A DNA stretch of 64,000 nucleotides from Flavobacteriaceae bacterium. Its GTDB lineage: Bacteria; Bacteroidota; Bacteroidia; Flavobacteriales; Flavobacteriaceae. A program made the position numbers and the translations under genes. Each line of letters starts with the position of its first letter. The first letter of the stretch is position 1. The notes beneath the pieces are model-generated. The model saw only the letters and a program-made list of their open reading frames with translations, ran no database searches and was not told the origin of the DNA. This document shows, piece by piece, positions 43,369 to 60,762 of this stretch. Location: NCBI GenBank assembly GCA_013001285.1, contig JABDMU010000076.1, positions 1 to 64,000 of the forward strand, written 5' to 3'.

Positions 43369-43381
43369 AATAGATAATACA

Positions 43382-44026
43382 ATGAAAAACTTAATCTTTC
43401 TCTTGACACTAGTGATGAGCACCTTTTCATTTGCTCAGAATACATCTGTCCAAGCCAAAGCACTCTTAGATGAAGTTTCTGAAAAGATAAAGAGCTATGA
43501 TAATATTTCTATTGACTTCAAATTTGTTCTGAACAACAGTAAGGAAAATATAAATCAAGAAACACGTGGTGACGTGATCATGGAAGGCGATAAATACGTC
43601 ATGAACCTACTGGGTTTTACCAGAATTTTTGATGGCAAAACATTATACACCATCAGTCCTGAAGACGAAGAAGTTACTATTTCCTCAAATAATTCGGAAG
43701 ATGAAAATACCATTTCACCAAGTAAAATGCTGTCATTCTATAAAGATGGATACAGTTACAAAATGGATATCGAGCAGAATATTCAAGGTCGGAAGATCCA
43801 ATATGTAAAGCTAACACCTATTGATTCTAACTCAGAATTGAAATACGTCCTGCTTGGAATAGACATTAAAACAAAGCACATTTACAATCTTATTGAAATT
43901 GGCAGTAATGACACTAAAACGACGTTGACTGTTAATTCTTTTAAAACAAATGAGCCTTTATCAAAAACGTTGTTTACTTTTGATGAGAAGAAATATAGCG
44001 ATTACTTTATCAATCGCATAGACTAA
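43382..44026 (+). CDS. lolA: Outer-membrane lipoprotein carrier LolA
   Basis: I use the ATG at 43382, which opens directly with the signal peptide MKNLIFLLTLVMSTFSFAQ; an earlier in-frame ATG at 43355 would overlap ftsK and put nine polar residues before it. The mature part (about 195 residues) shows the LolA/LppC-like pattern: AKALLDEVSEKIKSYDNISIDFKFVL, RGDVIMEGDKYVMNLLGF and IFDGKTLYTISPEDEEVTIS. LolA ferries lipoproteins across the periplasm. It stands between ftsK and the LptF gene, an arrangement shared by flavobacteria. Confidence 0.9.
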   Translation: MKNLIFLLTLVMSTFSFAQNTSVQAKALLDEVSEKIKSYDNISIDFKFVLNNSKENINQETRGDVIMEGDKYVMNLLGFTRIFDGKTLYTISPEDEEVTISSNNSEDENTISPSKMLSFYKDGYSYKMDIEQNIQGRKIQYVKLTPIDSNSELKYVLLGIDIKTKHIYNLIEIGSNDTKTTLTVNSFKTNEPLSKTLFTFDEKKYSDYFINRID

Positions 44027-44033
44027 GGTCATC

Positions 44034-46022
44034 TTGAAGCTACTTGACAAGTACATACTCACAACATATCTAAAAACTTTTTTCAGCGTGTTTATTATTC
44101 TCATGCTGATTTTTATTTTACAATCTGTTTGGCTGTATATTACTGAACTTGCCGGAAAAGATCTGGAAATAGATGTCGTTTTTAAATTTCTGCTATACGT
44201 ATCACCACGACTCATTGTTCTTGTTTTACCCCTTACCATTTTATTAGCATCGATCATGGTCTTTGGAAGTTTTGCCGAAAACTATGAATTCGCAGCTATG
44301 AAATCAACTGGCATTTCCTTACAGCGTGCAATGCGAAGTTTGGCGATATTCATAACAGGGTTAGCCATTACAACCTTCTTTTTTGCTAATAATGTGATTC
44401 CCTGGGCCGAATTTAATTTTTATAATCTTCGGAAGAACCTTGCCAAAGTAAAACCGGCTATGGTTATTGCCGAAGGACAATTCAATCAAATTGGTTCCAT
44501 AAATATTAAAGTTGAAGAAAAAAGTGGCGATCGCGGTCAATATCTAAAGGATGTGGTAATTCATAAACAGAAGGCTGGACGACTCGGCAATTTTACTGTG
44601 ATCAAATCGATGACAGGTGAACTCACTAGCGCGCCAGATTCTGACGTTTTGCAATTAGTGCTTTATGACGGTAATTATTATGATGCCATTCAACCAAAAG
44701 AAATTGAAGAAAGACGCAAACGTCCGCTAGTAAAAAGCTCATTCGAAAAATACACCTTGAATGTAGACTTGTCTCAAATGAACAATGTTGATCTTGATGA
44801 AAAAAAATATGCTTCCAAATATTCAATGCTCTCAGCAAAAGAATTGAGCTATACCATTGACACCTTGAAGATAGACCGAAAAAAGGATTTTGAAGACCTT
44901 TCTGAAAACATGTACAATCGTACAACAGCTTCAACTCTCAGTTTAAATATGAACCCAAGAGAAGTCGATTCGGCCTTTTCAGGAGCTAGTATTTATGAGC
45001 TTTTTGACAATAGAAGGAAAATACAACTAATAGATGCAGCAACGAACAGTGTTAACAGTACGAGAGCCATTTTAAATTCAAAAAAGAAAACTTTAGCGAT
45101 CGCCGAAAAGAATTTGAACAAACATATCATTTCCTTTTATGAAAAGTTTGCTTTAGGCTTTGCATGTATTATTTTATTCTTTGTTGGTGCTCCTCTAGGG
45201 GCATTGATCAGAAAAGGTGGTTTTGGTTTGCCCATCGTCATTGCCATCGTCCTGTTTTTGACCTATCATTTCATTGGAATTTTTGCAAAAAATAGTGCCG
45301 AAGACAGCAGTTTGAATCCAATTGCAGCCACCTGGTTATCAACATTAATAATGCTACCACTGAGCGTTTATTTGACCAATCGTGCTACAAAAGATAGAAG
45401 TTTGGTGAGCTTTGATGGCATATTCGACCCAATAAATAAACTCATAGGACGCAAGGAATCAGAACAAAAACCCGTGAGTAGTGATCAATTGGTGAAATCT
45501 TCGGAAGCATTTCAAACCTTAGATGGCTATTCAAAAGAAAAGCTAATTGATGTTATAAAAAATTACAGGCAATACGATCTGGATGTGAGTTATAAGAATT
45601 CGGCTTTAGCTATTTTAAATGAAAGAGGGTTTACGGAAGACGAATTGCGTTTTGGTGGTAATTTATTGAATGAGAATTATGAAAATGCGCTTCGTTATAA
45701 AAAGAGTTATGCTTCGAATTCAGTAACAACCTTCAAACTTTATTTCATTAGTCTCATTGGTGATATTGTTGGTGCAGTCTTAAATAACAATGGCTTTCCA
45801 ACCATTGGTTTGATCTTAATGATCATCGGGATACTCGCAACTTTAATTTATATCGTGTATTTGTTTAAATCCCTATCCAGCTTGTCCAACTTTTATAAGC
45901 AAATTCCAGAAAAATCTGGTGTCAATATATTTGTGCTTTTATTTATGGGGCTCCCATTGTTCTTTCTATTGTACTTTTATTATAAAGATAAATTGAAAGA
46001 GGATATCAAGACCATAAGATAG
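44034..46022 (+). CDS. LptF/LptG-family permease with C-terminal membrane extension
   Basis: The start is a TTG at 44034; no ATG fits, and the first residues KLLDKYILTTYLKTFF match the usual LptF/LptG opening. Residues 1-450 form the canonical permease: three helices, a large periplasmic beta-jellyroll domain (about 135-360) and three helices with LGFACIILFFVGAPLGALIRKGGFG. Residues 451-662 are an extra part with a helical soluble segment and about three further membrane helices. LptFG with LptB extracts LPS from the inner membrane. Which of F or G this is cannot be told. It lies 7 bases after lolA. Confidence 0.9.
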   Translation: MKLLDKYILTTYLKTFFSVFIILMLIFILQSVWLYITELAGKDLEIDVVFKFLLYVSPRLIVLVLPLTILLASIMVFGSFAENYEFAAMKSTGISLQRAMRSLAIFITGLAITTFFFANNVIPWAEFNFYNLRKNLAKVKPAMVIAEGQFNQIGSINIKVEEKSGDRGQYLKDVVIHKQKAGRLGNFTVIKSMTGELTSAPDSDVLQLVLYDGNYYDAIQPKEIEERRKRPLVKSSFEKYTLNVDLSQMNNVDLDEKKYASKYSMLSAKELSYTIDTLKIDRKKDFEDLSENMYNRTTASTLSLNMNPREVDSAFSGASIYELFDNRRKIQLIDAATNSVNSTRAILNSKKKTLAIAEKNLNKHIISFYEKFALGFACIILFFVGAPLGALIRKGGFGLPIVIAIVLFLTYHFIGIFAKNSAEDSSLNPIAATWLSTLIMLPLSVYLTNRATKDRSLVSFDGIFDPINKLIGRKESEQKPVSSDQLVKSSEAFQTLDGYSKEKLIDVIKNYRQYDLDVSYKNSALAILNERGFTEDELRFGGNLLNENYENALRYKKSYASNSVTTFKLYFISLIGDIVGAVLNNNGFPTIGLILMIIGILATLIYIVYLFKSLSSLSNFYKQIPEKSGVNIFVLLFMGLPLFFLLYFYYKDKLKEDIKTIR

Positions 46023-46035
46023 ACTATAAAAGTTG

Positions 46036-46043
46036 TATCTTTG
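46036..46043 (+). promoter_or_regulatory. Bacteroidota -7 promoter box of ribBA
   Basis: TATCTTTG matches TAnnTTTG and ends 19 bases before the chosen ribBA ATG at 46063. It argues for that start rather than the in-frame ATG at 46033, which lies upstream of the box. There is no room for an FMN riboswitch. Confidence 0.5.
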
Positions 46044-46062
46044 TCGGCAAATTAATGATCAC

Positions 46063-47220
46063 ATGTCAACTCAAAATACATTGGAAAAACCTATTGAAAT
46101 AACGCTGAATACCATCTCAGAAGCCATTGAAGATATTCGTCAAGGCAAGATCGTAATTGTTGTTGATGATGAAAATAGAGAGAATGAAGGCGATTTTATT
46201 ACTGCTGCTGAAAAGGTGACTCCAGAAATGATCAATTTTATGGCCAAACATGGTCGCGGATTGATATGTGCGCCATTAACTGAAGACCGTTGCGAGGAAC
46301 TGGAATTGAATATGATGGTAGAAAACAATACCGTTTTACACCATACACAGTTTACGGTTTCCGTTGATTTAATTGGACATGGATGTACTACGGGAATTTC
46401 TGTACAAGACAGAGCAAAGACCATAAAAGCCTTAGTAGATAATGATACTAAGCCTTTTGACCTAGGACGGCCAGGGCATATTTTTCCGCTTCGCGCAAAA
46501 AATGGTGGAGTCCTTAGACGAACAGGACATACTGAAGCTACAGTTGATTTAGCAAGACTTGCTGGCTTTAAACCAGCAGGAATTTTGGTAGAGATCTTGA
46601 ATGAGGATGGTACCATGGCACGATTGCCTCAATTGATGCATGTGGCTAAAAAGTTTGACTTGAAGATCATCTCTATTGAAGATCTGGTTGCTTACAGGAT
46701 GGAACATGACTCTTTGATCGATAAAAAAGAGGATTTTGATATCGAAACCCGTTTTGGGAAGTTCAGATTGAGAGCATACGAGCAAACCACCAATCACCAA
46801 ATACATATTGCACTAACCAAAGGGACTTGGAAAAATACTGAACCTGTCTTAACTCGTGTTAACGCAACTTTAGTGAATAATGATATCCTAGGAACTTTGA
46901 CCAACAATGCGGATGAGAAATTGGATGATATGTTCAAAGTGATCAATGATGCTGGAAAAGGTGCGATCATATTTATCAATCAGCAGGCCCAGTCAATGAA
47001 TCTCCTAAAGCGCTTAAAAACTTTGAAAGACACTCAAGTTGAAGGCGAAGTGATCAAGGCCCCAAGAATTGATATGGATGCCAAAGATTTTGGAATTGGT
47101 GCACAAATACTTCACGATTTGAACATTCGTAAATTACGTCTCATTTCCAATAGCCAACAAACCAAACGCGTTGGGATGATTGGTTATGGCTTGGAGATTG
47201 TTGAGTACGTAAGCTATTAA
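46063..47220 (+). CDS. RibBA-like protein: intact DHBP synthase with degenerate GTP cyclohydrolase II domain
   Basis: From the ATG at 46063 the protein has 385 residues. The N-terminal RibB part is complete: DDENRENEGDFI, HGRGLICAPL, TTGISVQDRA and GHTEATVDLARLAG, so it should make 3,4-dihydroxy-2-butanone 4-phosphate from ribulose 5-phosphate. The C-terminal RibA part keeps the fold (FGKFRLRAY; LNIRKLRLISN), but HSECLTGD has become NATLVNND, the CDCG zinc cysteines are lost and RQEGRGIGL reads NQQAQSMNL. GTP cyclohydrolase activity is therefore unlikely. Such inactive fusions (RibBX-like) are known in other bacteria. Confidence 0.9.
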   Translation: MSTQNTLEKPIEITLNTISEAIEDIRQGKIVIVVDDENRENEGDFITAAEKVTPEMINFMAKHGRGLICAPLTEDRCEELELNMMVENNTVLHHTQFTVSVDLIGHGCTTGISVQDRAKTIKALVDNDTKPFDLGRPGHIFPLRAKNGGVLRRTGHTEATVDLARLAGFKPAGILVEILNEDGTMARLPQLMHVAKKFDLKIISIEDLVAYRMEHDSLIDKKEDFDIETRFGKFRLRAYEQTTNHQIHIALTKGTWKNTEPVLTRVNATLVNNDILGTLTNNADEKLDDMFKVINDAGKGAIIFINQQAQSMNLLKRLKTLKDTQVEGEVIKAPRIDMDAKDFGIGAQILHDLNIRKLRLISNSQQTKRVGMIGYGLEIVEYVSY

Positions 47221-47339: not shown

Positions 47340-48170
47340 TTAGTTTTTATTCGGGTCGAGTCCAAGATTAAACAGATCCTGACCAGGCATTTTCTTTTCC
47401 TTGGCTGCTGGAAGATTAACTTCGCATGGTTTGTAGAAGTATTCCAATTGTCCCGAACCCGAACCAAACTGTTGTTGATTTTTTGCGGTTATATTAATTT
47501 CTGCTAAACGGTCATCACCATCAAATAAAATAAAGCTATTGCTATATCCTTCTGCATCGATTACAAACTTTGTACAATTAGAACTACCTCTGCACGCTAC
47601 AGTTTTTTCAGTATAACTGGTATCATCTGTGTCCGTTCTAAAATGATCCGGTTTTAGTATAAAGGCAAACTCTACAAACATAAAAGTATTCAGCTTCAGG
47701 CCTTTTTTATTTAGCTGGTCTGAAGCTTCCCAAATAGCCCCAACTGGCAATTTATAGGCTTGTGCCATAGCTGAAGGACCAATCATTGCTATGGCGCCAT
47801 TACTTAGAAGATTGGTTTTTACGAAACAGCCTTCATTGTCGTCATATGCGATAAAATACCCCTCACTATCAATAAACGACTTTTGCACTTTACCAGTTTT
47901 ATGGTCTTTCCAAACAGATTTCATGGCCAAATGATCTGCATCAAAGTAATTAACAGTTTTGGCCTTTTTTTCTACGTCGTAAGTTTCAATAACAATATCT
48001 TCTTGATAAAAGTCTCTTTTAGTGGCTGTATTTATCTGGTCTGCCGTATTTTCTTCTACAGTTTTACTGGTACCACCAGTAATTGCTTCCTTTAAATTGT
48101 CCAATATCTGTGCATTGGCAGGTAAGATCATACACAGCACAATACAGGTTGAAATGATTCTTGATTTCAT
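47340..48170 (-). CDS. Secreted protein of unknown function (DUF4412-like pattern)
   Basis: The 276-residue protein has a signal peptide (MKSRIISTCIVLCMILPANAQ). The remainder is a beta-rich soluble domain with DLKEAI near the start, several Asp/Lys-rich beta strands, two cysteine pairs (FVKTNL region Cys; ACRGSSNCTKF), and a C-terminal KKMPGQDLFNLGLD. The pattern recalls DUF4412-type proteins, but I cannot confirm it. It lies downstream of the adhesin genes and the relic copy, 12 bases after the relic's stop, and may be transcribed with them. Confidence 0.65.
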   Translation of the reverse strand: MKSRIISTCIVLCMILPANAQILDNLKEAITGGTSKTVEENTADQINTATKRDFYQEDIVIETYDVEKKAKTVNYFDADHLAMKSVWKDHKTGKVQKSFIDSEGYFIAYDDNEGCFVKTNLLSNGAIAMIGPSAMAQAYKLPVGAIWEASDQLNKKGLKLNTFMFVEFAFILKPDHFRTDTDDTSYTEKTVACRGSSNCTKFVIDAEGYSNSFILFDGDDRLAEINITAKNQQQFGSGSGQLEYFYKPCEVNLPAAKEKKMPGQDLFNLGLDPNKN

Positions 48171-48182
48171 GATTTCTTGTTT

Positions 48183-48314
48183 TTATTTATTAATATTTCC
48201 TTCATTTATAGCTTCAACACCATTTTCATTGGCTGCATTTAGGGTATAGGGCACACTCATAAACTGTGTGTTGCCCATATCAACTAAAACTGAAAGTAGA
48301 ATAAGATTTTTCAT
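48183..48314 (-). pseudogene. Relic of a third fibre/adhesin gene (43 codons)
   Basis: A 43-codon minus-strand frame begins 7 bases after the stop of the first fibre gene. After MKNLILLSVL it reads LVDMGNTQFMSVPYTLNAAN, nearly identical to LVDMGTTQFMAVPYAL at residues 108-122 of the full-length proteins, and then ENGVEAINEGN, which resembles the LEAIDEGNG seen in their linker module. The signal-peptide start is joined directly to an internal segment, so about 100 codons before it and the whole rest of the gene are missing. It is either a deletion remnant or a very small secreted derivative. Confidence 0.6.
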
Positions 48315-48321
48315 AATACTT

Positions 48322-51300
48322 TTATTTTTTGCTCTCCAAATGACCAATGCGTTTTTCTAATTTTTCTATCTGGATTTGTTGAGATTGAACTGTTTTTATA
48401 AGCAGAGGAATCAAATCATTATAAGAAACCGATAGCAAATCATTAGATTTATTTTCATAGACCATATCCGGAAATACTTTTTGCAATTCCTGGGCGATCA
48501 ACCCATAATTTTCCCGGCCGTCTTTCTGATCTTTCATTTTATATTTTACCGGGTTTAAATTCATTAGAAGGTCTGATTCCTCTTCTCCTAAGGGCTGTAT
48601 ATTTTTCTTTAAATTTTTGTCTGAAACCGGACCATAAACGCCTGAAGCAGCATTAAAAGAACCTCTGTAATTTCCATCTTTATAGAGCAATAAGTAACCA
48701 TCATTTTGAGTGAAGAACTGCCATGAATCATTTGAGGATTCGTTGGCGATGGTAAATGCATTTGTATAATCGGAGGTTGTAGGAACTCCATTAGTATGGG
48801 AAACCTCCAATATACTTCTGGGGGTATGTGTTCCTATGCCTGTTTTTCCGTCCTTTAAGACTGTTATAGCATTATTCGGACTACCGGAGGTTCCAATACC
48901 TATTTCGAAAACTGGATCAGTACTAGACCAAATCCCCGGAAATCCTCCACCAATATTATATCTGCCAAGTGTAAAAGATGCATAACTTTCTGCATTAGTT
49001 CCTTCACCAAAAGCGGAAGAAAATAATCCTGAGGCTTCAGTTAGAAAATTAAATGCAGCGGAACTTCCTCCTAAGGCAATTACCCTATCTCCACTTGCAA
49101 AAGAATAACTACCAAGCGCTCCAAAGAGATTTCCGGCGCCTAAACCATTTGATAAGTCAACGGCTCTTATTCCGATATTACCATAATGAACAGGATTATT
49201 TCCTATGAGTCGCCAACCGTAACCATTACCTTCATCAATAGCCTCCAATCCACTTGCGGCAGCCGGGATGATTCCATCAACATATTCTTTGGTTGTAAGT
49301 GCCTTAGGATCTGTGATCTCTGCAAGATCGAAAGTTGGGGCTAATACAGTTCCGTTTTTTAATACTGTTAGTGCATTGGTTCTTGAGACATCGCTAGAAC
49401 CATTTCCAATTTCAAATAGTGGATCTGTAGCAACCCACGTTGATGGATTTCCACCACCCTCATTAAATCTCCCTAAAACAAAAGAAGCATGAGAATCTGA
49501 TAAGGTTTGTATTCCAAATACTGAAGAAAAAAATCCATTTGCAACTGTTAATTGCCCGGTTGCAAAACTCAATCCACCAACAGCTTGAGAATTTATTCCA
49601 AATGCCGAACTGTAATCCCCAATCGCTTGATTTCCAAGACCAAAAGTACTAGAATAAATTCCGGATGCGGTTGTATCGTTTCCACTTGCAAAACTAGCTA
49701 GTCCAGTGGCATTGGTATTAATGCCAATTGCAAAGCTATTAGTTCCAGATGCTATGGTTGAATTATTTAATGCTGTTGAATTATTTCCGGATGCTTCCGT
49801 ATCTATTCCCATGGCAAATGAAACTCCTCCGGAAGCGATGGTATTTGTTCCACCAGCAAATGATCTAAATCCAACATTAACATCATCCCATTGAGTGTCA
49901 TTTACATTTCCCGCACGAAATGCACCCTTAGTTTTATTGAAGAACATTCTAATATCATTGTCTGGATTTCCGGTATCGTCCAATTGGGGTGAGCCAAAAA
50001 CGAAGTTATCTGTTGAATAAGTTCCATTAGCATTTGAGGTAATATTGCTATTAGTTGAAAAGGCTCCTCCTGAATTCAAGTCAACATATTCTTTGGTAGT
50101 TAATGCCTTGGGATCTGTTATTTCACCAAGATCAAAGCTTGGTGCAGTAATGGTTCCATTTTTTAATACCGTAAGCGCATTGCTTCTATTTGAATTATCA
50201 GCCCCATTTCCAATTTCGAATAAAGGATCTGTATCAACCCAAGTGAAACTATCACCTAAACCTGTGTTATATCTTCCGAAGGCCATTGATGAGTAAGCCA
50301 ACGCCCGAGCACCATGACCACTTGCCATCGAAAAAGATCCCGAAGCATTTGAAAAATAGCCGAAAGCACTACTGCTGGACCCTGAAGCATCTGTGTCTTC
50401 TCCAAAAGCGGCACTTTTACTTCCTGATGCTTCTGTACCGTCCCCTATGGCAAAAGAGGCAAATCCTGATGCATCTGTCAATGATCCTGCAGCAAATGAA
50501 TAATCGGCAGTTGCTTCCGTACTATTTCCGAAGGCTGCAGATGCCCTACCAATATTGGCTCCATTCCACTGAATATTTGATACTCGTCCTGCCCTAAAGG
50601 CCCCTAATTTATCTGGTAAGAACATCAATTTTTGCCCGCCGTTAATTGTATCATGTCCGAATAATACTCGTTTATCACCTTGAACATGAAAAGGTGTACG
50701 AGGGTCGGTCCCCACACCAACCCTTCCGTCACCCTTCATCATCATAATATTTCCATATCTGGAATTATAGATATTAAATCTGTCGTCTTCTACCAATGGT
50801 TGTGTTAATCCTGCTACTGTCCAATAGAAATCCCCGTTGGCGGTTCTGTAGTTCAAGCGCGCATAATCGTCTTCTGTTTCGGTAAGGGTCAGTTGTGAAT
50901 TGGCAACAGTGCTGTTTGATTGAATTTCCAACTGACCTTGCGGAGCGAGGTTTGATCCTATATTAACTGACTGTGTATCATTATAAATATGCGATCCAAC
51001 GTTTTCCCAGCGGTGGTCAGAGCTGCTTAATGCATAAGGCACTGCCATAAATTGGGTGGTTCCCATATCCACAAGTCCGCCGCCAATATCTACCTGCACA
51101 TTTAAGAAATGATCATCGGCTCCCCAATTGATTCCTGCAAAAGTTCCGGAGATAGGAGTGCCTTGCCCAATGTCTAACACCACCAGACCATTGGCATCGG
51201 TGATTGGATTGTGACTTTCGCTATAGGAGGTGCTCATGGCTGCCCCTTCTAAAACAGACAACTGAACTGTAACAGATTGGCTGTCAACAACATTACCCAA

Positions 51301-51393
51301 ATTGTCTTTTATAAGAGCCTTATAGTTAATGCCTTGTTGGGCAAATGAAACTAAAGTGAAGCAAAAAGCTAGTATAATTTGAAATGTTTTCAT
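48322..51393 (-). CDS. Giant fibre / adhesin with YadA-head repeats and peptidase S74 chaperone (copy A)
   Basis: The 1023-residue protein has a signal peptide (1-19), a conserved N-terminal domain (GINYKALIKDNLGNV; GLVDMGTTQFMAVPYAL at 107-121), a unique beta-rich section (about 126-285), three sets of YadA-head-like 14-residue repeats (ASGxxSxAxGxxT), and linker modules at about 373-438, 641-706 and 810-850. The C-terminus is a peptidase S74 intramolecular chaperone, with SDKNLKKNI (catalytic Ser924), NYGLIAQELQ and a trimeric-coil end KLEKRIGHLESKK. S74 domains help fibres trimerise and then cut themselves off. No membrane anchor or T9SS tail is visible. It overlaps copy B by 4 bases. Confidence 0.85.
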   Translation of the reverse strand: MKTFQIILAFCFTLVSFAQQGINYKALIKDNLGNVVDSQSVTVQLSVLEGAAMSTSYSESHNPITDANGLVVLDIGQGTPISGTFAGINWGADDHFLNVQVDIGGGLVDMGTTQFMAVPYALSSSDHRWENVGSHIYNDTQSVNIGSNLAPQGQLEIQSNSTVANSQLTLTETEDDYARLNYRTANGDFYWTVAGLTQPLVEDDRFNIYNSRYGNIMMMKGDGRVGVGTDPRTPFHVQGDKRVLFGHDTINGGQKLMFLPDKLGAFRAGRVSNIQWNGANIGRASAAFGNSTEATADYSFAAGSLTDASGFASFAIGDGTEASGSKSAAFGEDTDASGSSSSAFGYFSNASGSFSMASGHGARALAYSSMAFGRYNTGLGDSFTWVDTDPLFEIGNGADNSNRSNALTVLKNGTITAPSFDLGEITDPKALTTKEYVDLNSGGAFSTNSNITSNANGTYSTDNFVFGSPQLDDTGNPDNDIRMFFNKTKGAFRAGNVNDTQWDDVNVGFRSFAGGTNTIASGGVSFAMGIDTEASGNNSTALNNSTIASGTNSFAIGINTNATGLASFASGNDTTASGIYSSTFGLGNQAIGDYSSAFGINSQAVGGLSFATGQLTVANGFFSSVFGIQTLSDSHASFVLGRFNEGGGNPSTWVATDPLFEIGNGSSDVSRTNALTVLKNGTVLAPTFDLAEITDPKALTTKEYVDGIIPAAASGLEAIDEGNGYGWRLIGNNPVHYGNIGIRAVDLSNGLGAGNLFGALGSYSFASGDRVIALGGSSAAFNFLTEASGLFSSAFGEGTNAESYASFTLGRYNIGGGFPGIWSSTDPVFEIGIGTSGSPNNAITVLKDGKTGIGTHTPRSILEVSHTNGVPTTSDYTNAFTIANESSNDSWQFFTQNDGYLLLYKDGNYRGSFNAASGVYGPVSDKNLKKNIQPLGEEESDLLMNLNPVKYKMKDQKDGRENYGLIAQELQKVFPDMVYENKSNDLLSVSYNDLIPLLIKTVQSQQIQIEKLEKRIGHLESKK

Positions 51394-53774
51394 TTTTTAT
51401 TTGAATTAAGTTCTAATTCCATTGCATCAAGTCTCGCAATAAGCTGATTTACTACCATTAATGTTGATTCCTTATCTGCAGAAAGTTGATTAATCTTTAG
51501 TTCTTGATCTGTGATAGTTTGATTCTGTTCCTGAATTGCCTTGATAAGTACAGGAATAAGCTCAACATAACTTATACTTAAAGTTTCTCTTTCGTCTTCA
51601 CCAACATTCACAATGTCATTTAAAATAGATTGTACATCTTGAGCGATTAATCCGAAGGTTTTTTGAGATTTATCTTTTTGATTTTTCCAATGGTAGGAAA
51701 CAGGATTTAAACTTAAAACGGTTTTTAGCCCATATTCAATCTCGGAAATATCGGTTTTTAGTCTTTTATCCGATGCTAAATCATAACTCCATGCAAGGAC
51801 ATGCCCGTTTCGATAAACCGTCATAGCATTGGCTCTAAATGTTCCATCAGTGCCATCTCCTGTACCATTACCTATTTGAAAAAGAACATCGTCATAGATA
51901 TCATTATACTCTCCTATTACCAGACTACTAGGATTTTGAGCAATTGTTCCTAAGCCCATAGCCACGGTATGGCTTGCAGAAGCAACAGTATTTTTTCCAA
52001 AAGAGGAGGAATAATTTCCGTTAGCTTGAGTGTTATCCCCAAATGAGCTACTGAAATCTCCTAGAGCTGTGGTTAAATTTCCGGTTGATAAGGAATACTG
52101 ACCTTGAGCTTGTGAACCAACGCCCATTGCTGTAGAGTAATCTCCAGAGGCATTGGTGTTTGTGCCCATTGCGGTTGAATATAACCCACCTGCCTGAGAA
52201 AGATTTCCCATGGCGGTAGATGCGATCCCACTGGCAAAAGTATTTACACCAAGGGCTGTTGACCAGTCGGCAAAAGCCCTAGTTTCATTTCCAATTGCTA
52301 CAGAATGATTAAAACTTGCTTCTGCATTATCGCCTATGGCAATAGAACCTACACTGAATGCAGAGGATAAATTTCCAAATGCAATAGAATTTTCTCCTGA
52401 GGCGTTAGACTGATTACCCATGGCAACCGAATAATTCCCCGATGCTTGACTTAACAGTCCAACGGCAAACGAATCTGATCCTAATGCTTGTGTGAGGTGC
52501 CCTAATGCCACTGAATGCTGTCCCGCTGCGGTGGTTTGATATCCTACTGCAAAAGAATTATCTCCTGTAGCTCCATAAGACGTACTATTCGTATTACTTT
52601 CACTTAAATCTATTGCATGATCACCTATATCACCATAATTGTTCGGATCTTTATCATTTAATCGCCATCCCCCTTTCATATTCTCAACTATGAGTTCCAA
52701 ACCACTTAGCTCGTTCTCAAAATTGTAATCCACATATTCTTTGGTCACCAGTGATTTTGGATGAGTCATATATAAAAGGTCAAAGGTTGGCGCGTGAATA
52801 GTTCCATTTTTAAAGACAATTAGCGCATTTTGCCTTGTGGCTTCAGAAAATCCATTTCCAATTTCAAATAGAGGATTGAATCCATCCCATGATGTAGGAT
52901 GGCCACCTCCTGTATTAAATCTGCCAATAGCAGTAGTCATAAAAGATTCTGCTTTTGTAAAGGCACCCATAGCTGTTGAATATGCACCTGAAGCAATTGT
53001 ATTTTGACCAAATGCTGTAGAGTTCTGACCTGAGGCTAAATTCCCATTTCCTAAGGCTACGGCACTATGTCCGGATGCCGTATTACCTCCACCAATAGAT
53101 GTTGATTGAGTACCGGTAGCATTAGATCCTACCCCGGCTGCAAAGGAATTCCAGCCCTCGGCTAAGGTGTTTTGACCAAAGGAACTTGCCCAATGGCCAA
53201 TTGCTTGAGCATTATATCCTGAAGCAATTGTATTATTCCCAGACGCCAAACTCAGTTCTCCAAAAGCAACAGAATAATTACCTGAAGCAATAGTGCCATT
53301 ACCAGCTGCGAATGATTGATCGCCAATAGCTTGATTATTAGCTCCAATTGCCATCGCTGCAAACCCCGAGGCGATCACATCACCACCAACAGCAAAGCTG
53401 GAAACCCCGGTTGCTCCATTTACGGTTGAAGGAAAAAAACTATCGCTAAGATCAACAGCGTTTATACCAATAGTTCCAAAATTGGCCGGATCTTTACCTG
53501 CTAAGCGCCATCCACCGATTCCGTTTCCTGTTTCAATAAATTCTAAACCGGTTCCACCACCACCAGAATAATTTGCATCTGCATATTCCTTTGTAATTAA
53601 TGATTTTGGATCTACTATTTCGTCAATTTCGAAACTTGGAGCAATTAAAGTTCCATTCTTTAAAACAGTTAACGCATTACTTCTAGGTGCACCATCTATA
53701 CTATTTCCAACTTCAAATAATGGATCTGTTTCTTCCCATGTATCAGCCGAACCTCCTCCTACATTATAACTTCC
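48844..53774 (-). repeat. Tandem linker and head modules within and between the two fibre genes
   Basis: A linker of about 66 residues recurs: a GRYNxGGG start, then TDPLFEIGNG, NALTVLKNGT, APxFDL and ITDPKALTTKEYVD. Copies are at 53774-53577 and 52925-52728 (copy B) and 50277-50080 and 49473-49276 (copy A), with shortened versions at 51914-51780 and 48966-48844. Each is flanked by a GLExIxxGNGxGWRL / YGxIGxxAVDLS segment and head repeats. The high DNA similarity makes the region prone to recombination and hard to assemble. Confidence 0.8.
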
Positions 53775-54449
53775 AAGGGCTGTTGAATGCATGGCTTCAG
53801 CTTTTGAATAATTTCCGAAGGCAAATGAATTTAAACCGGAGGCTACAGTTTGTAATCCCCCAGCCATAGACTGTGATCCGGAAGCGGTGGTTTGATAACC
53901 GTTGGCAAAAGAATAATTTCCTGTAGCTCCATAAGTAGAATTATTAGATGTTAAACTAATGCTTATGTCAGTTGCAGCCAAACCTATATCACCATAAGCA
54001 TCTGGATTTGTATCTGCAAGTCGCCATCCTGGGCTTCCTCCTTCCCAAATTTTCTCCAAACCAAGTGAAGGAGCATAAAGAGCATAAGGTACAGACATGA
54101 ACTGTGTAGTTCCCATGTCTACCAGACCAGATCCAATATCAACTTGTACATTTAGAAAATGCTCATCGCTTCCCCAAAGAATATCAGTAAAATCTCCAAT
54201 AATGGGAGTCCCTTGACCTATATTTATCATTACCATGCCATTTTCATCAGTCATTGCATTATGACTTTCTGAATAAATAATGGCCATACCATCACCAATT
54301 TTTATGGTAATTTCCAAGATTATGCTTTGATCAACCAAAGCGTTTCCAAGATCATCCGTTATATAAGCTTTATAATTGATTCCCGTTTGGGCTATTGAAC
54401 TAAAACTTAATAATAGTCCTAGAAATAGAAGATACATTCCTTTTTTCAT
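51390..54449 (-). CDS. Giant fibre / adhesin with YadA-head repeats and peptidase S74 chaperone (copy B)
   Basis: The 1019-residue paralogue of copy A has a signal peptide (1-20), the same N-terminal domain (GLVDMGTTQFMSVPYAL at 108-124), and then long runs of YadA-head-like repeats in three blocks (about 175-225, 343-508, 625-845), separated by linker modules at about 226-291 and 509-574; a third, degenerate linker is at about 846-890. The S74 domain starts at SDKRLKTDI (Ser893), followed by FGLIAQDVQ and a coiled coil ending in LNSNKK. Repeat number and unique segments differ from copy A, so the genes have diverged by module shuffling. It is first in the pair. Confidence 0.85.
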   Translation of the reverse strand: MKKGMYLLFLGLLLSFSSIAQTGINYKAYITDDLGNALVDQSIILEITIKIGDGMAIIYSESHNAMTDENGMVMINIGQGTPIIGDFTDILWGSDEHFLNVQVDIGSGLVDMGTTQFMSVPYALYAPSLGLEKIWEGGSPGWRLADTNPDAYGDIGLAATDISISLTSNNSTYGATGNYSFANGYQTTASGSQSMAGGLQTVASGLNSFAFGNYSKAEAMHSTALGSYNVGGGSADTWEETDPLFEVGNSIDGAPRSNALTVLKNGTLIAPSFEIDEIVDPKSLITKEYADANYSGGGGTGLEFIETGNGIGGWRLAGKDPANFGTIGINAVDLSDSFFPSTVNGATGVSSFAVGGDVIASGFAAMAIGANNQAIGDQSFAAGNGTIASGNYSVAFGELSLASGNNTIASGYNAQAIGHWASSFGQNTLAEGWNSFAAGVGSNATGTQSTSIGGGNTASGHSAVALGNGNLASGQNSTAFGQNTIASGAYSTAMGAFTKAESFMTTAIGRFNTGGGHPTSWDGFNPLFEIGNGFSEATRQNALIVFKNGTIHAPTFDLLYMTHPKSLVTKEYVDYNFENELSGLELIVENMKGGWRLNDKDPNNYGDIGDHAIDLSESNTNSTSYGATGDNSFAVGYQTTAAGQHSVALGHLTQALGSDSFAVGLLSQASGNYSVAMGNQSNASGENSIAFGNLSSAFSVGSIAIGDNAEASFNHSVAIGNETRAFADWSTALGVNTFASGIASTAMGNLSQAGGLYSTAMGTNTNASGDYSTAMGVGSQAQGQYSLSTGNLTTALGDFSSSFGDNTQANGNYSSSFGKNTVASASHTVAMGLGTIAQNPSSLVIGEYNDIYDDVLFQIGNGTGDGTDGTFRANAMTVYRNGHVLAWSYDLASDKRLKTDISEIEYGLKTVLSLNPVSYHWKNQKDKSQKTFGLIAQDVQSILNDIVNVGEDERETLSISYVELIPVLIKAIQEQNQTITDQELKINQLSADKESTLMVVNQLIARLDAMELELNSNKK

Positions 54450-54468
54450 AATGTTTGGTTTTAATTAA

Positions 54469-54501
54469 GAGGAGGTGGCAGCCTAAACTAACCGCCTCCT
54501 C
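54469..54501 (-). terminator. GC-rich hairpin between the 46-aa ORF and copy B, attenuator or weak terminator
   Basis: GAGGAGGTGG (54469-54478) pairs with CCGCCTCCTC (54492-54501), ten pairs with one G-T, around a 13-base loop. It is the only GC-rich stem in an AT-rich stretch and lies 20 bases before the copy B start on the minus strand. The T-tract after it is weak (TTAATT), so it may act as a partial terminator for the small ORF, as an mRNA-stabilising leader stem or as an attenuator for the fibre operon. Confidence 0.4.
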
Positions 54502-54526: not shown

Positions 54527-54667
54527 TTATTTTTTAAACTTGATGGATTTCACCACTTTGTTCTTTAAAAGCAACTGTAGCTTATATGATCCTTCTTTTA
54601 AATGATCTATGCTTAGGTAGATCTTTGAATCATTTTTCTCTAAATCTTGATCCTTTAAGTTTTTCAT
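54527..54667 (-). CDS. Small 46-aa ORF of unknown function
   Basis: This frame sits in the 357-base space (54450-54806) between copy B and the hybrid sensor gene. It has an ATG start with an in-frame stop three codons before it. The sequence MKNLKDQDLEKNDSKIYLSIDHLKEGSYKLQLLLKNKVVKSIKFKK is highly charged, has no signal peptide, and alternates polar and hydrophobic residues as a small beta sheet would. Its composition is protein-like rather than random. I do not recognise a family with certainty. The rest of the space holds the 54469-54501 hairpin and otherwise no clear element. Confidence 0.45.
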   Translation of the reverse strand: MKNLKDQDLEKNDSKIYLSIDHLKEGSYKLQLLLKNKVVKSIKFKK

Positions 54668-54806: not shown

Positions 54807-57800
54807 TTAAGATGTTTTTTGAAGATACTCAGTAGGTGTACAGTTATAAACCGCTTTAAATGATTTTATGAAATAGGAAGGGGTATTAAATCCAACTTGG
54901 TAGGCTACTTCAGAAATGGTACAATTATTTTGAGTCATTATGGCAACAGCTTGTTTTAATCTTTGTCTTCTTATAAATTCTGAACTGCTCATATCGGTAA
55001 GGGCTTTAAGTTTCCGATGCAATTGCATTCTACTCATCAACATTTTTTTGCTAAAATTTTCAGCATTAAAATCAGGATCCATAAGGTTGTCATCAAGTAC
55101 CTGTTGCAATCTTTCAATAAATTGCTCCTCGGCCGAGGAAATTTGAATGTCTTTAGTTTTAAACTCGAAGTTATTTCCAAAATGAGTTTGAAGTTGCTTC
55201 CTACCTTCTATTAAATTCTCAATTCTTATTTTCAATTTATTGGCACTAAAGGGTTTGGTCATATAAGCGTCGGCTCCAGTTTCAAATCCTTTTATTTCAT
55301 GCCTATCTCCAGATTTTGCGGTAAGTAATATAACGGGAATATGACTACATCTTTGATCTTCCTTGATTGCCTTGGTAGTTTCTAAGCCGTCTGGACCGGG
55401 CATCATAATATCACAAATAATTATATCGGGAATAAACTCTATGGCCTTTTTAATCCCTGTTTTTCCTTCAGAAGCCTCGATGACTTCATATTCGGGGTTT
55501 AGAATAGACCTAATAAATTGCCGGATATCATCGTCATCATCTATAACCAAAACCATAGACTTATCTGAATCCTCTATTTCTATTTCATTTATTTTCTCTT
55601 GAGACTCCATTGCCTCAAAATCTATCTCGCTATGATGGAAATATGATTTATCTATAGGCAACGTAACTGTAAATTGAATTCTATCATCATCTAAGGTATT
55701 GGCTACTACATTTCCATGAGAAAGTATGCATAACTCTTTTACCAAAGACAAGCCTACTCCCATACCATCTGAATTCGATTTATCTTGATAAAACCTCTGA
55801 AATAATCGCGGTAATTCATCATCAAAAAGAGTGTTGCCACTGTTGATCACTGTGATGATTAATTGTCCGTCTTTCTCTTGAGTGGAAAAGGATATCCGCC
55901 CTCCCGAAGGTGTATATTTCACCGCATTGGAAAGCAAATTGGTGACGATTTTCTCTACTACATCTCTATCAAACCATGCTGTTTTGATCTTGGCTATATC
56001 GCTTTGAAAATTTATTTTTTTTTCATTAGCCTGGAATTTGAAGGCTCTTCCAATTTGATGCATTAGAGCACCTAGGTTATCTTGAACAACCGATAATTTC
56101 AAATTTCCGGTTTCTAGTTTTGATAAATCAAGCAGTTGATTTACCAGATTCATTAAACGGTTGCTGTTACGTTTGATTAATTCGAGTTCCTCTTTATCTT
56201 CTTCAGATAAGTTTTTCTTTTGCAATTGGTTGGTAACCGGTCCATCTATCAAGGTTAAGGGTGTTCTAAATTCATGAGAAATATCGGTGTATAATTTCGA
56301 CTTAAAATCATCCAATTTTTTTAACCTGATGGCCTCAGCATGTTCCAGTTCCAGCTGCATTTTTAAAGCCCATCGCCATTTGAAATAACTATAAATTGAA
56401 TAAAGAAGAAAAATAAATAGTAGTCCATAGATTATTTTAGCAGTAAGGGTTGCATACCACGGTTGGAGAATGGTGAATTTATATTCAGCTGCATCTTGAT
56501 TCCAGACTCCCTCATAATTGCTTGAGACCACTTTAAAGGTATAATCATCCGGAGGAAGGTTGGTATAGTGGGCAGTATTAATAGTTGATGGTGGTGACCA
56601 TCCCGAATCATGATTTTCCAGTTTATACTTATATAGATTTTCTTGTGGTTGGGAAAAATGCAGTCCGGCAAAAGTAAATGTTACTGTATTTTCGTTATGA
56701 GCTAACTCAAGATTTGGGATGAGGGACCTTTTTTCATTAAAAATTTCGAATTTGGAAATAACAGTCTTAGGCTTCATTTCATTAAAAGACATATGGTTGG
56801 GTTGAAACCAGTTAATCCCATTGAGCCCTCCAAAATACATCATTCCTTTTCCATCTTGATAATATGCTCCTGTATTAAATTCAAAGGCTTGCAAGCCATT
56901 AAGAGGAGAAAAATTAACAACATTTATTTCCTTATTATCAGCAATATTAATTCTTACTATCCCTTTATTTGTACTAAGCCATTTATGATTGTTTTCGTCA
57001 ATTAGGATTCCATAAATTACGTTATTTGACAAGCCCTCATCCACAGTAAAAGAGTCAATTTTCTTAGATTCAATTTCATATTTATATAATCCGTTGCCAT
57101 TTGTTCCGATCCAAAGATCAAACCGATGAAAGTTTAAGGATTTGATCTTTTTTGGAATATCCTCAATGGATTGAATACTATTAGCAACTACATCGAGAAC
57201 ATATAAACCTTCATCCTCGGTTCCAAGAAAAAAAGTAGAGCCCGGACCCTTTTCAATGGTTCGAATATTTGAAGTTTTTAATTTCGAATTTTTGCTGTTG
57301 TAAGTTTGTTTGATTCCTTCTCTTTTGTTGAATCTTATAAGTCCTTCATCCCTTGTGCACAGCCAAAGTTCCTCCTCTGAAGCCGGATAAATCTTCCAAA
57401 TGGTTTGTGTTTTTAATTCGGGAAAGGAGCTCATATTGCCTTTTTCGTTCATTAGTTGCAAACCTCCTGCTTGATGCCCAATCCACAATTCATCTTTATC
57501 ATTGTAAAGGCTCATTATTCTATTGGTTCGCAATGCTGAATTCGACGCAGTTAAAGTCTTAAAATCTTTGGTTTCAGGGTTAATAAGTGTTAATCCTTTC
57601 CCCGATGTTCCTATCCAAATATTACCATTATTATCAGTTGTAATTGATCTTATAACGTCGACATTTACCTCATCCGGTAAATGATCATTTGTTAGCATTC
57701 TAAATTTGATGAGATGTTCATCAAAATAACTCAATCCTGCACCATCGGTTCCCAGCCAAATGGTATTCGTTCGATCCTGAAATAGGCAAAGAACATCATT

Positions 57801-58709
57801 ATAATGAAGGGCAAACGGATCTGTGACATCTGCCAAAAAATGCTGAATCATTTCCTTTTTAAAATCAAGCAAGAATACACCTTGGCCGTAAGTTGCCACC
57901 CATAGTCTGTTATGATGATCGGTGAGTAAATCTTGAACTTTTAAGTTTTGGGGCAGGTCTTTATCTTCTGAAAACCCTTTAAATGGTATTAATTTTTCGG
58001 TATTCTCATCATAAAGAAAGAGACCATTTCCGAAGCTTCCAATAAAAAGTCCTTTTCCTCTTGTAAAACTATAACTACTGTAGTTTATAGGTTTATCTAA
58101 TGCGCTTGGAATCTGATATATATCTGAATTGTTAAATTTATATAACCCTCCATGAGCGGCAATAAATAGCTCATCATTAAATTCATTTAAGGCGTAAATA
58201 TCCGGTAATGGTTTTTTAGTAGAAAATAATTGAAGAGTATCTCCTGTCTTTTCTTGAATTTTAAACAGACCATCACCATAGGTTCCGATAAAAAAATCGC
58301 CATTAGAATCGCGTAATACGGTTGAAATATTCTCTAATTCGCTAGCTGTTTTAAAAAGGTTTTGGTCTTTGTTATATTTTAAAAGTTTACCATCAAGATC
58401 AATGCAATAAATCTCTCCTTTGGTGTCAACATAAACTTTACCTAAGCGCGAAAAATCAGGGCGTGTAATATCAACAAATTGGAGATTGAAATATTCAAAT
58501 TCTCTACCGTCATATTTGTTAAGACCGTCTTGAGTAGCAAACCAAAGATAACCGGTACTATCCTGTGCTATTGAGACTACCGAATTTTGAGAAAGACCTT
58601 GTTCAACAGTAAGATCGCGAAAGCTGATTGGTTTGTTGACTTCTTGAGAATAGACCGATAAGAAAACAAACTGCAAAGAAAGGATGATATAGGCAAATCG
58701 CAAGGTCAT
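54807..58709 (-). CDS. Hybrid two-component system sensor/regulator (HTCS) with AraC output
   Basis: This is a one-protein signalling system of 1300 residues. In order: signal peptide (1-21), a two-beta-propeller-like sensor of Reg_prop repeats (about 25-660, e.g. GLSQNSVVSIAQDSTGYLWFATQDGLNKYDG), a Y_Y_Y domain (about 690-750), a membrane helix (about 752-775), HisKA with DISHEFRTPLTL (His near 807), HATPase_c, a receiver domain with phospho-acceptor Asp in IIICDIMMPG (near 1096) and a C-terminal AraC-type HTH (from about 1195, SEVAYQVGFNTPSYFIKSFKAVYN). HTCS proteins usually control neighbouring polysaccharide or surface genes; here the nearest targets are the fibre genes. Confidence 0.95.
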   Translation of the reverse strand: MTLRFAYIILSLQFVFLSVYSQEVNKPISFRDLTVEQGLSQNSVVSIAQDSTGYLWFATQDGLNKYDGREFEYFNLQFVDITRPDFSRLGKVYVDTKGEIYCIDLDGKLLKYNKDQNLFKTASELENISTVLRDSNGDFFIGTYGDGLFKIQEKTGDTLQLFSTKKPLPDIYALNEFNDELFIAAHGGLYKFNNSDIYQIPSALDKPINYSSYSFTRGKGLFIGSFGNGLFLYDENTEKLIPFKGFSEDKDLPQNLKVQDLLTDHHNRLWVATYGQGVFLLDFKKEMIQHFLADVTDPFALHYNDVLCLFQDRTNTIWLGTDGAGLSYFDEHLIKFRMLTNDHLPDEVNVDVIRSITTDNNGNIWIGTSGKGLTLINPETKDFKTLTASNSALRTNRIMSLYNDKDELWIGHQAGGLQLMNEKGNMSSFPELKTQTIWKIYPASEEELWLCTRDEGLIRFNKREGIKQTYNSKNSKLKTSNIRTIEKGPGSTFFLGTEDEGLYVLDVVANSIQSIEDIPKKIKSLNFHRFDLWIGTNGNGLYKYEIESKKIDSFTVDEGLSNNVIYGILIDENNHKWLSTNKGIVRINIADNKEINVVNFSPLNGLQAFEFNTGAYYQDGKGMMYFGGLNGINWFQPNHMSFNEMKPKTVISKFEIFNEKRSLIPNLELAHNENTVTFTFAGLHFSQPQENLYKYKLENHDSGWSPPSTINTAHYTNLPPDDYTFKVVSSNYEGVWNQDAAEYKFTILQPWYATLTAKIIYGLLFIFLLYSIYSYFKWRWALKMQLELEHAEAIRLKKLDDFKSKLYTDISHEFRTPLTLIDGPVTNQLQKKNLSEEDKEELELIKRNSNRLMNLVNQLLDLSKLETGNLKLSVVQDNLGALMHQIGRAFKFQANEKKINFQSDIAKIKTAWFDRDVVEKIVTNLLSNAVKYTPSGGRISFSTQEKDGQLIITVINSGNTLFDDELPRLFQRFYQDKSNSDGMGVGLSLVKELCILSHGNVVANTLDDDRIQFTVTLPIDKSYFHHSEIDFEAMESQEKINEIEIEDSDKSMVLVIDDDDDIRQFIRSILNPEYEVIEASEGKTGIKKAIEFIPDIIICDIMMPGPDGLETTKAIKEDQRCSHIPVILLTAKSGDRHEIKGFETGADAYMTKPFSANKLKIRIENLIEGRKQLQTHFGNNFEFKTKDIQISSAEEQFIERLQQVLDDNLMDPDFNAENFSKKMLMSRMQLHRKLKALTDMSSSEFIRRQRLKQAVAIMTQNNCTISEVAYQVGFNTPSYFIKSFKAVYNCTPTEYLQKTS

Positions 58710-58847: not shown

Positions 58848-59651
58848 CTATTGTTTTATAATTCGTTTAAATAATTTTTTTTCTTCATAAATTAGATATA
58901 AAAAATAGACGCCTCCTGATAAATTTCTAAGATCAATTTGATTTAAATTTTCTTGATGACGCGCCACCCGTCTTCCATTGATATCGTACACATCAATAGT
59001 TTTAAACTGCAAATTCGAATCTATATATACATAATCGGCAGTTGGATTCGGATAAATTTTTATTGAATTTGTATTTATTGGAAAATCTTCTGTACTCAAA
59101 GTATCAAAATTAAAACTTTCTAAGCCTGGTGCGTAACCACTAAAATAATCTTGGGTTGTGGTCATATCAATATTGGAATTGTAGAAACTATCCAGTACAC
59201 CACCTGAACCAACTGCAATAGGGTCGCTGTTATCTAAAAAGCTCATGACTCCAGAAACAGGCATATTACTAACACTAAAGGTAACCAAATCTATCATTTG
59301 CCCCATAGTATGCGCAAACAAACTCTGACCTGCAGGCATATTAAATTGAAAGGCATCTCTTGTGCCATCGCCCAATCCAAGGCCAGTTAAAAAAGCAGCA
59401 TCAAATTCGGTAACAGTCCAGGTTCGTGGTGTTAATGCCGAAGCCTCATTAACAACATCACTCGCTCCTGCGGGTAACATTAAGGTAAATCCTACGTCTG
59501 AAAGATCTGTATCTCCTGCGGAATCAAAATCAGGGACGGCTACCACCTTAAAGTCGTATCCGGCTACATGGACGACCCCAAGATCATAAGTTTGACCAAA
59601 GGCCATTGAACTTACTATAAATGCTAAAATAAAAGTGTAATACTGTCTCAT
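58848..59651 (-). CDS. Secreted protein with type IX secretion C-terminal sorting domain
   Basis: The 267-residue protein has a signal peptide (1-19, ending SSMAFGQ), a beta-rich central part of about 170 residues and a Por_Secre_tail sorting domain from about residue 195: SIKIYPNPTADYVYI, IDVYDINGRRV, and LRNLSGGVYFLYL ending in a basic FKRIIKQ. It should cross the outer membrane by the type IX system and be attached to the surface. The middle part has the general look of a cohesin-like beta sandwich (VTFSVSNMPVSGVMSF), which is only a guess. It starts 11 bases after its partner gene. Confidence 0.85.
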   Translation of the reverse strand: MRQYYTFILAFIVSSMAFGQTYDLGVVHVAGYDFKVVAVPDFDSAGDTDLSDVGFTLMLPAGASDVVNEASALTPRTWTVTEFDAAFLTGLGLGDGTRDAFQFNMPAGQSLFAHTMGQMIDLVTFSVSNMPVSGVMSFLDNSDPIAVGSGGVLDSFYNSNIDMTTTQDYFSGYAPGLESFNFDTLSTEDFPINTNSIKIYPNPTADYVYIDSNLQFKTIDVYDINGRRVARHQENLNQIDLRNLSGGVYFLYLIYEEKKLFKRIIKQ

Positions 59652-59662
59652 GATAAAAATTT

Positions 59663-60658
59663 TTAATTGTTAACTGGTGGTACTGTTGCTTGTATGGTAT
59701 AGGTTACAGAATTGAAGCCGTTTGCTGGATGAGCCAACACATTATCTTTAAGAATATTGCTGTCGTTGCCAGCTCCTGAAAATCGTCCGATACCATTCAT
59801 ATTGATGTCGATATTTAGATAACCCTGTGACCCAAAGGTCACCGAATTGAATCCGTTGGCCGGATCTGCTAAGACAAAATCTTTAATGGCATTCGTGCCA
59901 TTATTTGCTCCTGAAAATCGGATTTGATTAGCCAAATTGGTATCGCCTCCCCAAAGGGCTTTATCACCAGTTCCTAATAAGACTTGTGCGTTAGGGCCCC
60001 ATTCGCCAAAGCCAATATTTGTAAAATCAATAGATACTGGTGCATTGGTTAGTCCAATAGGACTTCCTGACATAGCATCCATATGGTTGCGGTGTGCTAA
60101 GACCACATAATATGAGGTTGGCGAGGCTTGCATGACCAATGGTGAAATTCCATCTAGATCAACCACATCACCATCGCGTTGTAATAGTCCAGAGCGTCCA
60201 TTGATCCGTTTTGTGTTATCAGAGGCAGTACGTAATTCGGCCCAGACCCAATCCACAATATCATCTTGTGGCAAACCCGTTCCAGAAGTCCCTCCTGTGT
60301 TTAAAACGGAAGCAGCAACAAGTGCCTGATCGGCATACGGACTTTGCAAAGGAATATATCCCAAAGTGCGAAGGTCATCATTCATTAAACCTGGCGCAGC
60401 CGGAGCTAATAACGGACCTTGTAGAAACAATTTTGGTTCCAGTTGCAGTCGTCCGTCAGGTACAACAAAACCTTCAGAAACAGAAACTGTTGGCGTACTG
60501 CGTTCTTGAATATTCACTTCGCCTATGGTATAGAGCAGTTCAATACCTCCAGCTGTGGCAGAATCACCACCACTATCAATACTAAAGCGTTCTATGGTTT
60601 GGGCATTAGAAAATTTTATACAACTTAAGACGATTAGTATTATTAATAAGGTTCTCAT
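59663..60658 (-). CDS. Secreted hemagglutinin-like protein with duplicated calcium-loop-like C-terminal motif
   Basis: The start is the ATG ending at 60658 (MRTLLIILIVLSCIKFSNAQ, a signal peptide); an in-frame ATG at 60679 adds 7 residues. The protein (about 331 residues) begins ETIERFSIDSGGDSA-like beta structure and ends in two similar units, GDTNLANQIRFSGANNGTNAIKDFVLADPANGFNSVT and IDINMNGIGRFSGAGNDSNILKDNVLAHPANGFNSVT. The Asp/Asn spacing resembles the calcium loops of dockerins. No T9SS tail is present. Flavobacterial relatives are often annotated as hemagglutinin. It precedes and probably is cotranscribed with the T9SS protein; a TAACTTTG box lies about 105 bases upstream. Confidence 0.75.
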   Translation of the reverse strand: MRTLLIILIVLSCIKFSNAQTIERFSIDSGGDSATAGGIELLYTIGEVNIQERSTPTVSVSEGFVVPDGRLQLEPKLFLQGPLLAPAAPGLMNDDLRTLGYIPLQSPYADQALVAASVLNTGGTSGTGLPQDDIVDWVWAELRTASDNTKRINGRSGLLQRDGDVVDLDGISPLVMQASPTSYYVVLAHRNHMDAMSGSPIGLTNAPVSIDFTNIGFGEWGPNAQVLLGTGDKALWGGDTNLANQIRFSGANNGTNAIKDFVLADPANGFNSVTFGSQGYLNIDINMNGIGRFSGAGNDSNILKDNVLAHPANGFNSVTYTIQATVPPVNN

Positions 60659-60762
60659 GTTTTTGGTTTTTAGTACCATTTTCTCACATTGCCTTAAGAA
60701 GTATTTGTGAAAGCACGGTTAATTGTAATGTCTAAAAATATTTAGGCTAATGATTATATTTT

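Follow-up and report, generated by a model that had tools for sequence, protein, structure and literature searches.

The window analysed here is a stretch of 64,000 nt from the contig JABDMU010000076.1 of a Flavobacteriaceae bacterium (assembly GCA_013001285.1). On its reverse strand it holds two genes for long fibre proteins, P1 and P2, and in the same cluster a pair of genes, A and B, here described as a split adaptor (Table 1). A preliminary description, made from the letters alone, had read P1 and P2 as overlapping genes for proteins of about 1020 amino acids (aa), each with a signal peptide, YadA-head-like repeats and a C-terminal peptidase S74 domain with a Ser-Lys motif. This is confirmed by the open reading frames, which share 4 bases, and by Pfam. 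The N-termini are hydrophobic signals with the ends ...FAQ and ...IAQ, respectively. YadA_head is matched with 222 bits in P2 and 49 bits in P1 (cut-off 25), Peptidase_S74 (PF13884, gathering cut-off 22) with 59.5 bits in P2 and 60.4 bits in P1. Both S74 domains have the SDxxxK dyad, SDKNLK in P1 and SDKRLK in P2, with the Lys at the expected distance of 5 residues past the Ser. By analogy with the S74 family, P1 and P2 probably cleave themselves at Ser924 and Ser893. The earlier view of S74-chaperoned, probably self-cleaved trimeric fibres is supported. Elsewhere in the 2.9-Mb genome only one S74 protein occurs (C62, 344 aa), in which head repeats and the N-terminal domain described below are absent by eye and which was not matched in the search for that domain.

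Table 1. Features of the fibre and adaptor cluster. Positions are those of the window.
Feature	Position	Strand	Description
Third fibre gene, deleted copy	48183-48314	-	signal-peptide start joined in frame to N-domain end; stop after 43 codons
Fibre gene P1	48322-51393	-	1023 aa; architecture as in P2
P1 Peptidase_S74 domain	48457-48624	-	starts at Ser924; Ser924/Lys929
P1 N-domain	51013-51339	-	residues 19-127
Fibre gene P2	51390-54449	-	1019 aa; signal peptide, N-domain, YadA-head repeats, S74, C-terminal coil
P2 Peptidase_S74 domain	51609-51773	-	starts at Ser893; Ser893/Lys898
P2 N-domain	54063-54392	-	residues 20-129; beta-rich; distant Bdello_MAT_N match
Microprotein gene	54527-54667	-	46 aa; conserved; between hybrid regulator and fibre
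Hybrid two-component sensor/regulator	54807-58709	-	Reg_prop, Y_Y_Y, HisKA, HATPase, receiver, AraC helix-turn-helix
Partner B	58848-59651	-	267 aa; beta-sandwich, weakly cohesin-like; type A sorting domain of the type IX secretion system (about 58851-59057)
Long adaptor A	59663-60679	-	338 aa; signal peptide, FSIDSGG adaptor domain (60458-60604), middle region, dockerin-like C-terminus; no sorting domain
Dockerin-like duplicated loops of A	59705-59959	-	limits approximate; weak matches

Directly after each signal peptide follows a domain of ~110 residues (GINYKA...DMGTTQF.VPYAL), termed the N-domain, in which P1 and P2 agree to ~61%. Its homology to the N-domain of the mosaic adhesive trimer (MAT) proteins of Bdellovibrio (Bdello_MAT_N) was judged via the NCBIfam profile NF053851. 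The two whole proteins reach 31.1 and 22.5 bits and the isolated P2 N-domain 37.2 bits, all under the curated cut-off of 60, and only the first half of the profile is matched (positions 4-78 of 162). In the entire genome P1 and P2 are the only matches to this model. It is also matched by 18 out of 18 diverse members of the N-domain family in Bacteroidota (best 1.9e-12) and by 66 out of 73 full-length relatives. Judged by these profile matches the homology is solid, though the scores of P1 and P2 stay below the cut-off. An AlphaFold2 model of the P2 N-domain (pLDDT 90.7) is beta-rich with a helix at the end. A close solved structure was not found in a fold search (best E 4.8e-3, TM-score about 0.5), and a comparison with a viral library gave weak matches to tail proteins.

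The MAT N-domain of Bdellovibrio is likewise without a close solved structure (Caulton et al. 2024, PMC10769870). According to the same study, each of the 21 MATs of Bdellovibrio bacteriovorus carries a domain of this kind behind its signal peptide, and 13 of them end in an S74 domain with SDxxxK. Self-cleavage of the latter was demonstrated by experiment, with Bd3182 as a MAT example, and was blocked by S782A; the surface location of MATs was demonstrated experimentally as well (PMC10769870). By this analogy P1 and P2 are most likely surface fibres, and they appear to be chromosomal and not of phage origin.

A scan of genome contigs with the narrower N-domain alignment yielded 73 loci, nearly all from Flavobacteriaceae, which contain 158 N-domain proteins, many of them in tandem with short spacing or overlap. 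One locus, on a contig of a metagenome-assembled genome (L054), is 99.85% identical to the window across 11 kb. The tips of the 143 complete N-domain proteins are S74 (91), Lcl_C (7), C1q-like (3), FISUMP (2) or of other, unknown kinds, and YadA heads occur in 80. Variable tips are thus placed on a common N-domain base, a mosaic as in MAT. Four tandem arrays (L087, L083, L066 and L105), with up to five or more fibre genes, have different tips within one locus, hinting at tip shuffling. The array of the window was formerly longer too, as evident from the remnant of a third fibre gene.

The fibre chain itself has no outer-membrane anchor. The preliminary description had seen no YadA barrel, sorting domain or lipobox in P1 and P2. 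This stands: a profile search for YadA_anchor, Por_Secre_tail and the type B sorting domain was empty even at E<=1, and no lipobox was found in the two proteins. YadA_anchor is absent from the 143 relatives at E<=0.01. A sorting domain of the type IX secretion system (T9SS) was found by a local profile of this C-terminal domain (CTD) in none of the 158 proteins and in none of another 49 (0 of 207 in total), nor by Pfam. A loose lipobox pattern, with a Cys in the signal region of 4 of the 143 relatives, was judged to be due to chance.

Comparison of the neighbours revealed a recurrent gene immediately beside the fibres and on the same strand, which encodes a signal peptide and an adaptor domain of ~50 aa (IEKFSIDSGG...LYTIGEVNVQE...SEGFIN). 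In the short form, which is that of most Bacteroidota, a T9SS type A sorting domain directly adjoins the adaptor domain in the same protein of ~155-160 aa. In the long form it is followed by ~250 residues which end in a duplicated D-x-N-x-D/N-G motif; here a sorting domain is lacking and is found on the next gene instead. The window has the long form, and with its A and B as queries the neighbour families were separated. The sorting domain of B (TIGR04183/PF18962) scores 48.8 bits against a cut-off of 23 and matches solved T9SS CTDs with E=1.8e-12. A profile of the long adaptors hit a single PDB entry, the dockerin 4dh2, weakly (E=0.15), and Pfam Dockerin_1 is found in 3 of 28 homologues of A (best 0.0056). 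A model of B finds the cohesins 5lxv (E=3.6e-3) and 2jh2 (E=8.6e-3) in Foldseek, with TM-scores below 0.5 and among other immunoglobulin-like folds. A putative contact of the cohesin-dockerin kind between A and B is plausible.

The pairing was examined across the phylum in 40 regions with N-domain genes, drawn from about 15 families. In 31 of these regions an adjacent gene on the same strand has a T9SS type A sorting domain, mostly upstream of the fibre, from which it is separated by between a few bases and a few tens. This domain is present in 31 of 68 adjacent genes versus 7 of 307 others (p=6e-20). TIGR04183 is matched in 47 out of 48 adaptors scanned with NCBIfam. In the Flavobacteriaceae loci, the adaptor domain is encoded by the next gene in 50 out of the 65 fibre clusters that have a downstream gene. 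A sorting domain is part of the adaptor itself in 19 of these 50; of the remaining 31 adaptors, 25 are directly followed by a CTD gene.

A first adaptor profile, trained only on named loci nearly all of which are from Flavobacteriaceae, matched 13 genomes, 12 of them with an N-domain, and 12 of its 16 matches lie no more than 4 kb away from an N-domain gene, in addition to the window's own at 6 kb. A wider profile gave 89 matches at E<=1e-3, of which 73 have an N-domain gene on the same strand at a distance of 4 kb or less; in genomes outside its training the same holds for 27 of 37 matches. Among the genomes with an adaptor by this profile, 65 of 70 also have an N-domain (p=6e-44), and in an apparent exception, G241, an S74 gene is located about 1 kb from the adaptor. 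Across the phylum the adaptor usually comes first, in most Flavobacteriaceae loci the fibre; the pairing is kept despite the swapped order, which argues for a functional link and not for an inherited order. The adaptor domain was also seen away from fibres in far larger reading frames of 750 to 3703 aa (G107:C8:73515, G330:C17:74543, G368:C6:24074).

The genome of this organism contains SprA and PorV of the T9SS. In a survey of 393 Bacteroidota genomes, the N-domain was found in 96, SprA in 321 and S74 in 113. SprA is present in all 96 genomes with an N-domain versus 225 of the 297 others (p about 2e-10).

We therefore propose, with a probability of about 0.7, that P1 and P2 are MAT-like trimeric adhesins which are tethered, and possibly co-exported, via an adaptor exported by the T9SS. 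Sec would take both proteins into the periplasm. The S74 domain would drive trimerisation and, after assembly, cut itself off at the outer tip. The end for attachment would be the N-domain, rather than a barrel or a sorting domain, and it would be held by the short adaptor domain (FSIDSGG...YTIGE...SEGF) on T9SS cargo of the same cluster. In the window the T9SS would display B, and A, as well as the fibre through A, would follow onto the surface. Binding of the N-domain to the adaptor, dependence on the T9SS and the surface location in this organism we infer from the gene pairing and the architecture. The fibre may either pass through SprA together with the adaptor, or reach the surface by another route and merely be docked. 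A bolder version, which we put forward tentatively and consider possible rather than probable, takes the adaptor as a sorting signal in trans: the T9SS would export a CTD-less fibre trimer whose N-domain binds a small CTD-bearing carrier. This would be a two-partner type IX secretion across Bacteroidota, with a split version that uses a cohesin-dockerin-like contact. The suggestion that the attachment lies outside the type IX pathway, also made in the preliminary description, is not supported, as a T9SS-sorted partner is located in the same cluster and beside such fibres throughout the phylum.

Several points weigh against tethering through a T9SS-exported adaptor. In the window, the adaptor pair and the fibres are separated by the 3.9-kb regulator gene, and a few loci (e.g. 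L145, L146, L166) have no adaptor next door. The adjacency of the sorting domain alone is weaker in Flavobacteriaceae (34 of 159 adjacent genes, p=3e-6), as in these loci it often lies one gene further on. The wide adaptor profile was built partly from genes selected for their adjacency, although the out-of-sample counts agree. The association with SprA is partly phylogenetic, since genomes without SprA are concentrated in one family. The similarity to dockerin (E=0.15) and to cohesin (Foldseek E 4e-3 to 9e-3, TM-score below 0.5) is weak, and the structure predictions are of single chains. Finally, Bdellovibrio shows MAT fibres yet, to our knowledge, has no T9SS, so that a partner of another kind can serve the N-domain.

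The same lineage lends weight to the idea that the fibre crosses the outer membrane independently of the T9SS, as the MAT fibres there would have to, and docks outside on the T9SS-displayed adaptor. MAT fibres of the same architecture are surface exposed in Bdellovibrio (PMC10769870), and the fibres themselves have no CTD. We nevertheless regard docking alone as somewhat doubtful: comparison of the neighbours found no conserved gene for an alternative exporter near the fibres, and among the recurrent partners the T9SS adaptor alone carries export information. It is improbable that adaptor and fibre are unconnected surface proteins which share an operon just for use under the same conditions. 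A hybrid two-component regulator often adjoins, and hence the locus is a regulated unit; but one specific domain of ~50 aa and one fibre domain are paired over about 15 families, in swapped order and in 65 of 70 adaptor genomes, and the short adaptor consists of little beyond the adaptor domain and the sorting signal.

That the proteins are periplasmic or carried by vesicles and never reach the surface would fit with a fibre chain that has no outer-membrane anchor. We consider this quite unlikely in view of the adjoining T9SS partner, the paralogues with C1q, Lcl and FISUMP tips, which are of the adhesin type, and the presence of the Bdellovibrio MATs on the surface. Least credible of all appear captured tail fibres of a phage, a prophage or a contractile injection system. 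The S74 domain and matches to tail-fibre families of PHROG point in this direction, but the PHROG matches cover S74 and the head repeats, the proteins have signal peptides and the neighbours are housekeeping genes. Relatives of the N-domain were found neither in 50,697 phage records nor in the viral contigs of IMG/VR, and a prophage origin of the fibres was rejected on this ground.

Homologues of the hybrid regulator occur in 34 fibre loci and in 16 of the 73 directly upstream of a fibre gene. Its frequent presence beside the fibres suggests that an external ligand may control their expression. Between regulator and fibre a microprotein is encoded, whose family members have 43-74 aa, no signal peptide and the motif IYLSIDHLKKGxYxLNIxxKNKVVKSIKF. 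In 28 of 30 testable cases its gene comes straight after that of the hybrid two-component regulator, and in 19 the next gene encodes a fibre. The microprotein resembles the last half of the T9SS sorting domain. Just 5' of the P2 start codon, at about 54465-54500 (-), the sequence forms a strong hairpin (GAGGAGGCGG...CCACCTCCTC; z-score of the region -3.1), possibly an attenuator or a leader structure. The cluster is flanked at 40981-47220 (+) by genes read as ftsK, lolA-like, lptG-like and ribBA. Of the 73 fibre loci, 14-15 contain homologues of these genes, which suggests an old fixed position in Flavobacteriaceae. A secreted protein of 276 aa without known family is encoded at 47340-48170 (-); a direct search finds homologues of it in 3 of the 73 fibre loci.

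P1 and P2 share with the MAT superfamily the signal peptide, the beta-rich N-domain, the long fibre, exchangeable tips (S74 with SDxxxK, TNF/C1q-like, lectin-like) and the many paralogues. They differ in matching only the first half of NF053851 below its cut-off, in the YadA-head shaft, in the adjoining T9SS adaptor and in belonging to another phylum. With the S74 chaperones (PF13884) of the phage K1F endosialidase and the T5 tail fibre they have the domain, the Ser-Lys spacing and its C-terminal position in common, but they are secreted bacterial fibres and not parts of a virion. YadA-type autotransporters (type Vc) have the same head repeats, whereas P1 and P2 lack a membrane anchor and are probably attached by the N-terminus and not by a C-terminal barrel. 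Type A cargo of the T9SS (TIGR04183/PF18962) is represented by the adaptor, or by B in the window; the fibre, in contrast, never has a sorting domain, and the adaptor would carry or hold it in trans. The dockerin-like loops of the long adaptors and the weakly cohesin-like fold of B recall the cohesin-dockerin scaffolds of cellulosomes, but this similarity is only weak and would serve to tether a fibre, not to build an enzyme scaffold.

All the parts are of known kinds. Among open-licence PMC papers, we found no description of MAT-like fibres paired with a T9SS adaptor, and nothing relevant on the T9SS together with S74, endosialidase or co-secretion of CTD-less proteins; thus the phylum-wide combination of a MAT-like fibre and a T9SS adaptor in trans was not found described. 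For the many S74 fibres of Bacteroidota that have no visible route to the surface, the conserved T9SS adaptor beside them is a concrete and testable answer. It is also a lead on what the MAT N-domain binds, as this surface element was left unidentified in the Bdellovibrio study (PMC10769870). If co-export is true, the T9SS would be able to move cargo through a sorting signal provided in trans.

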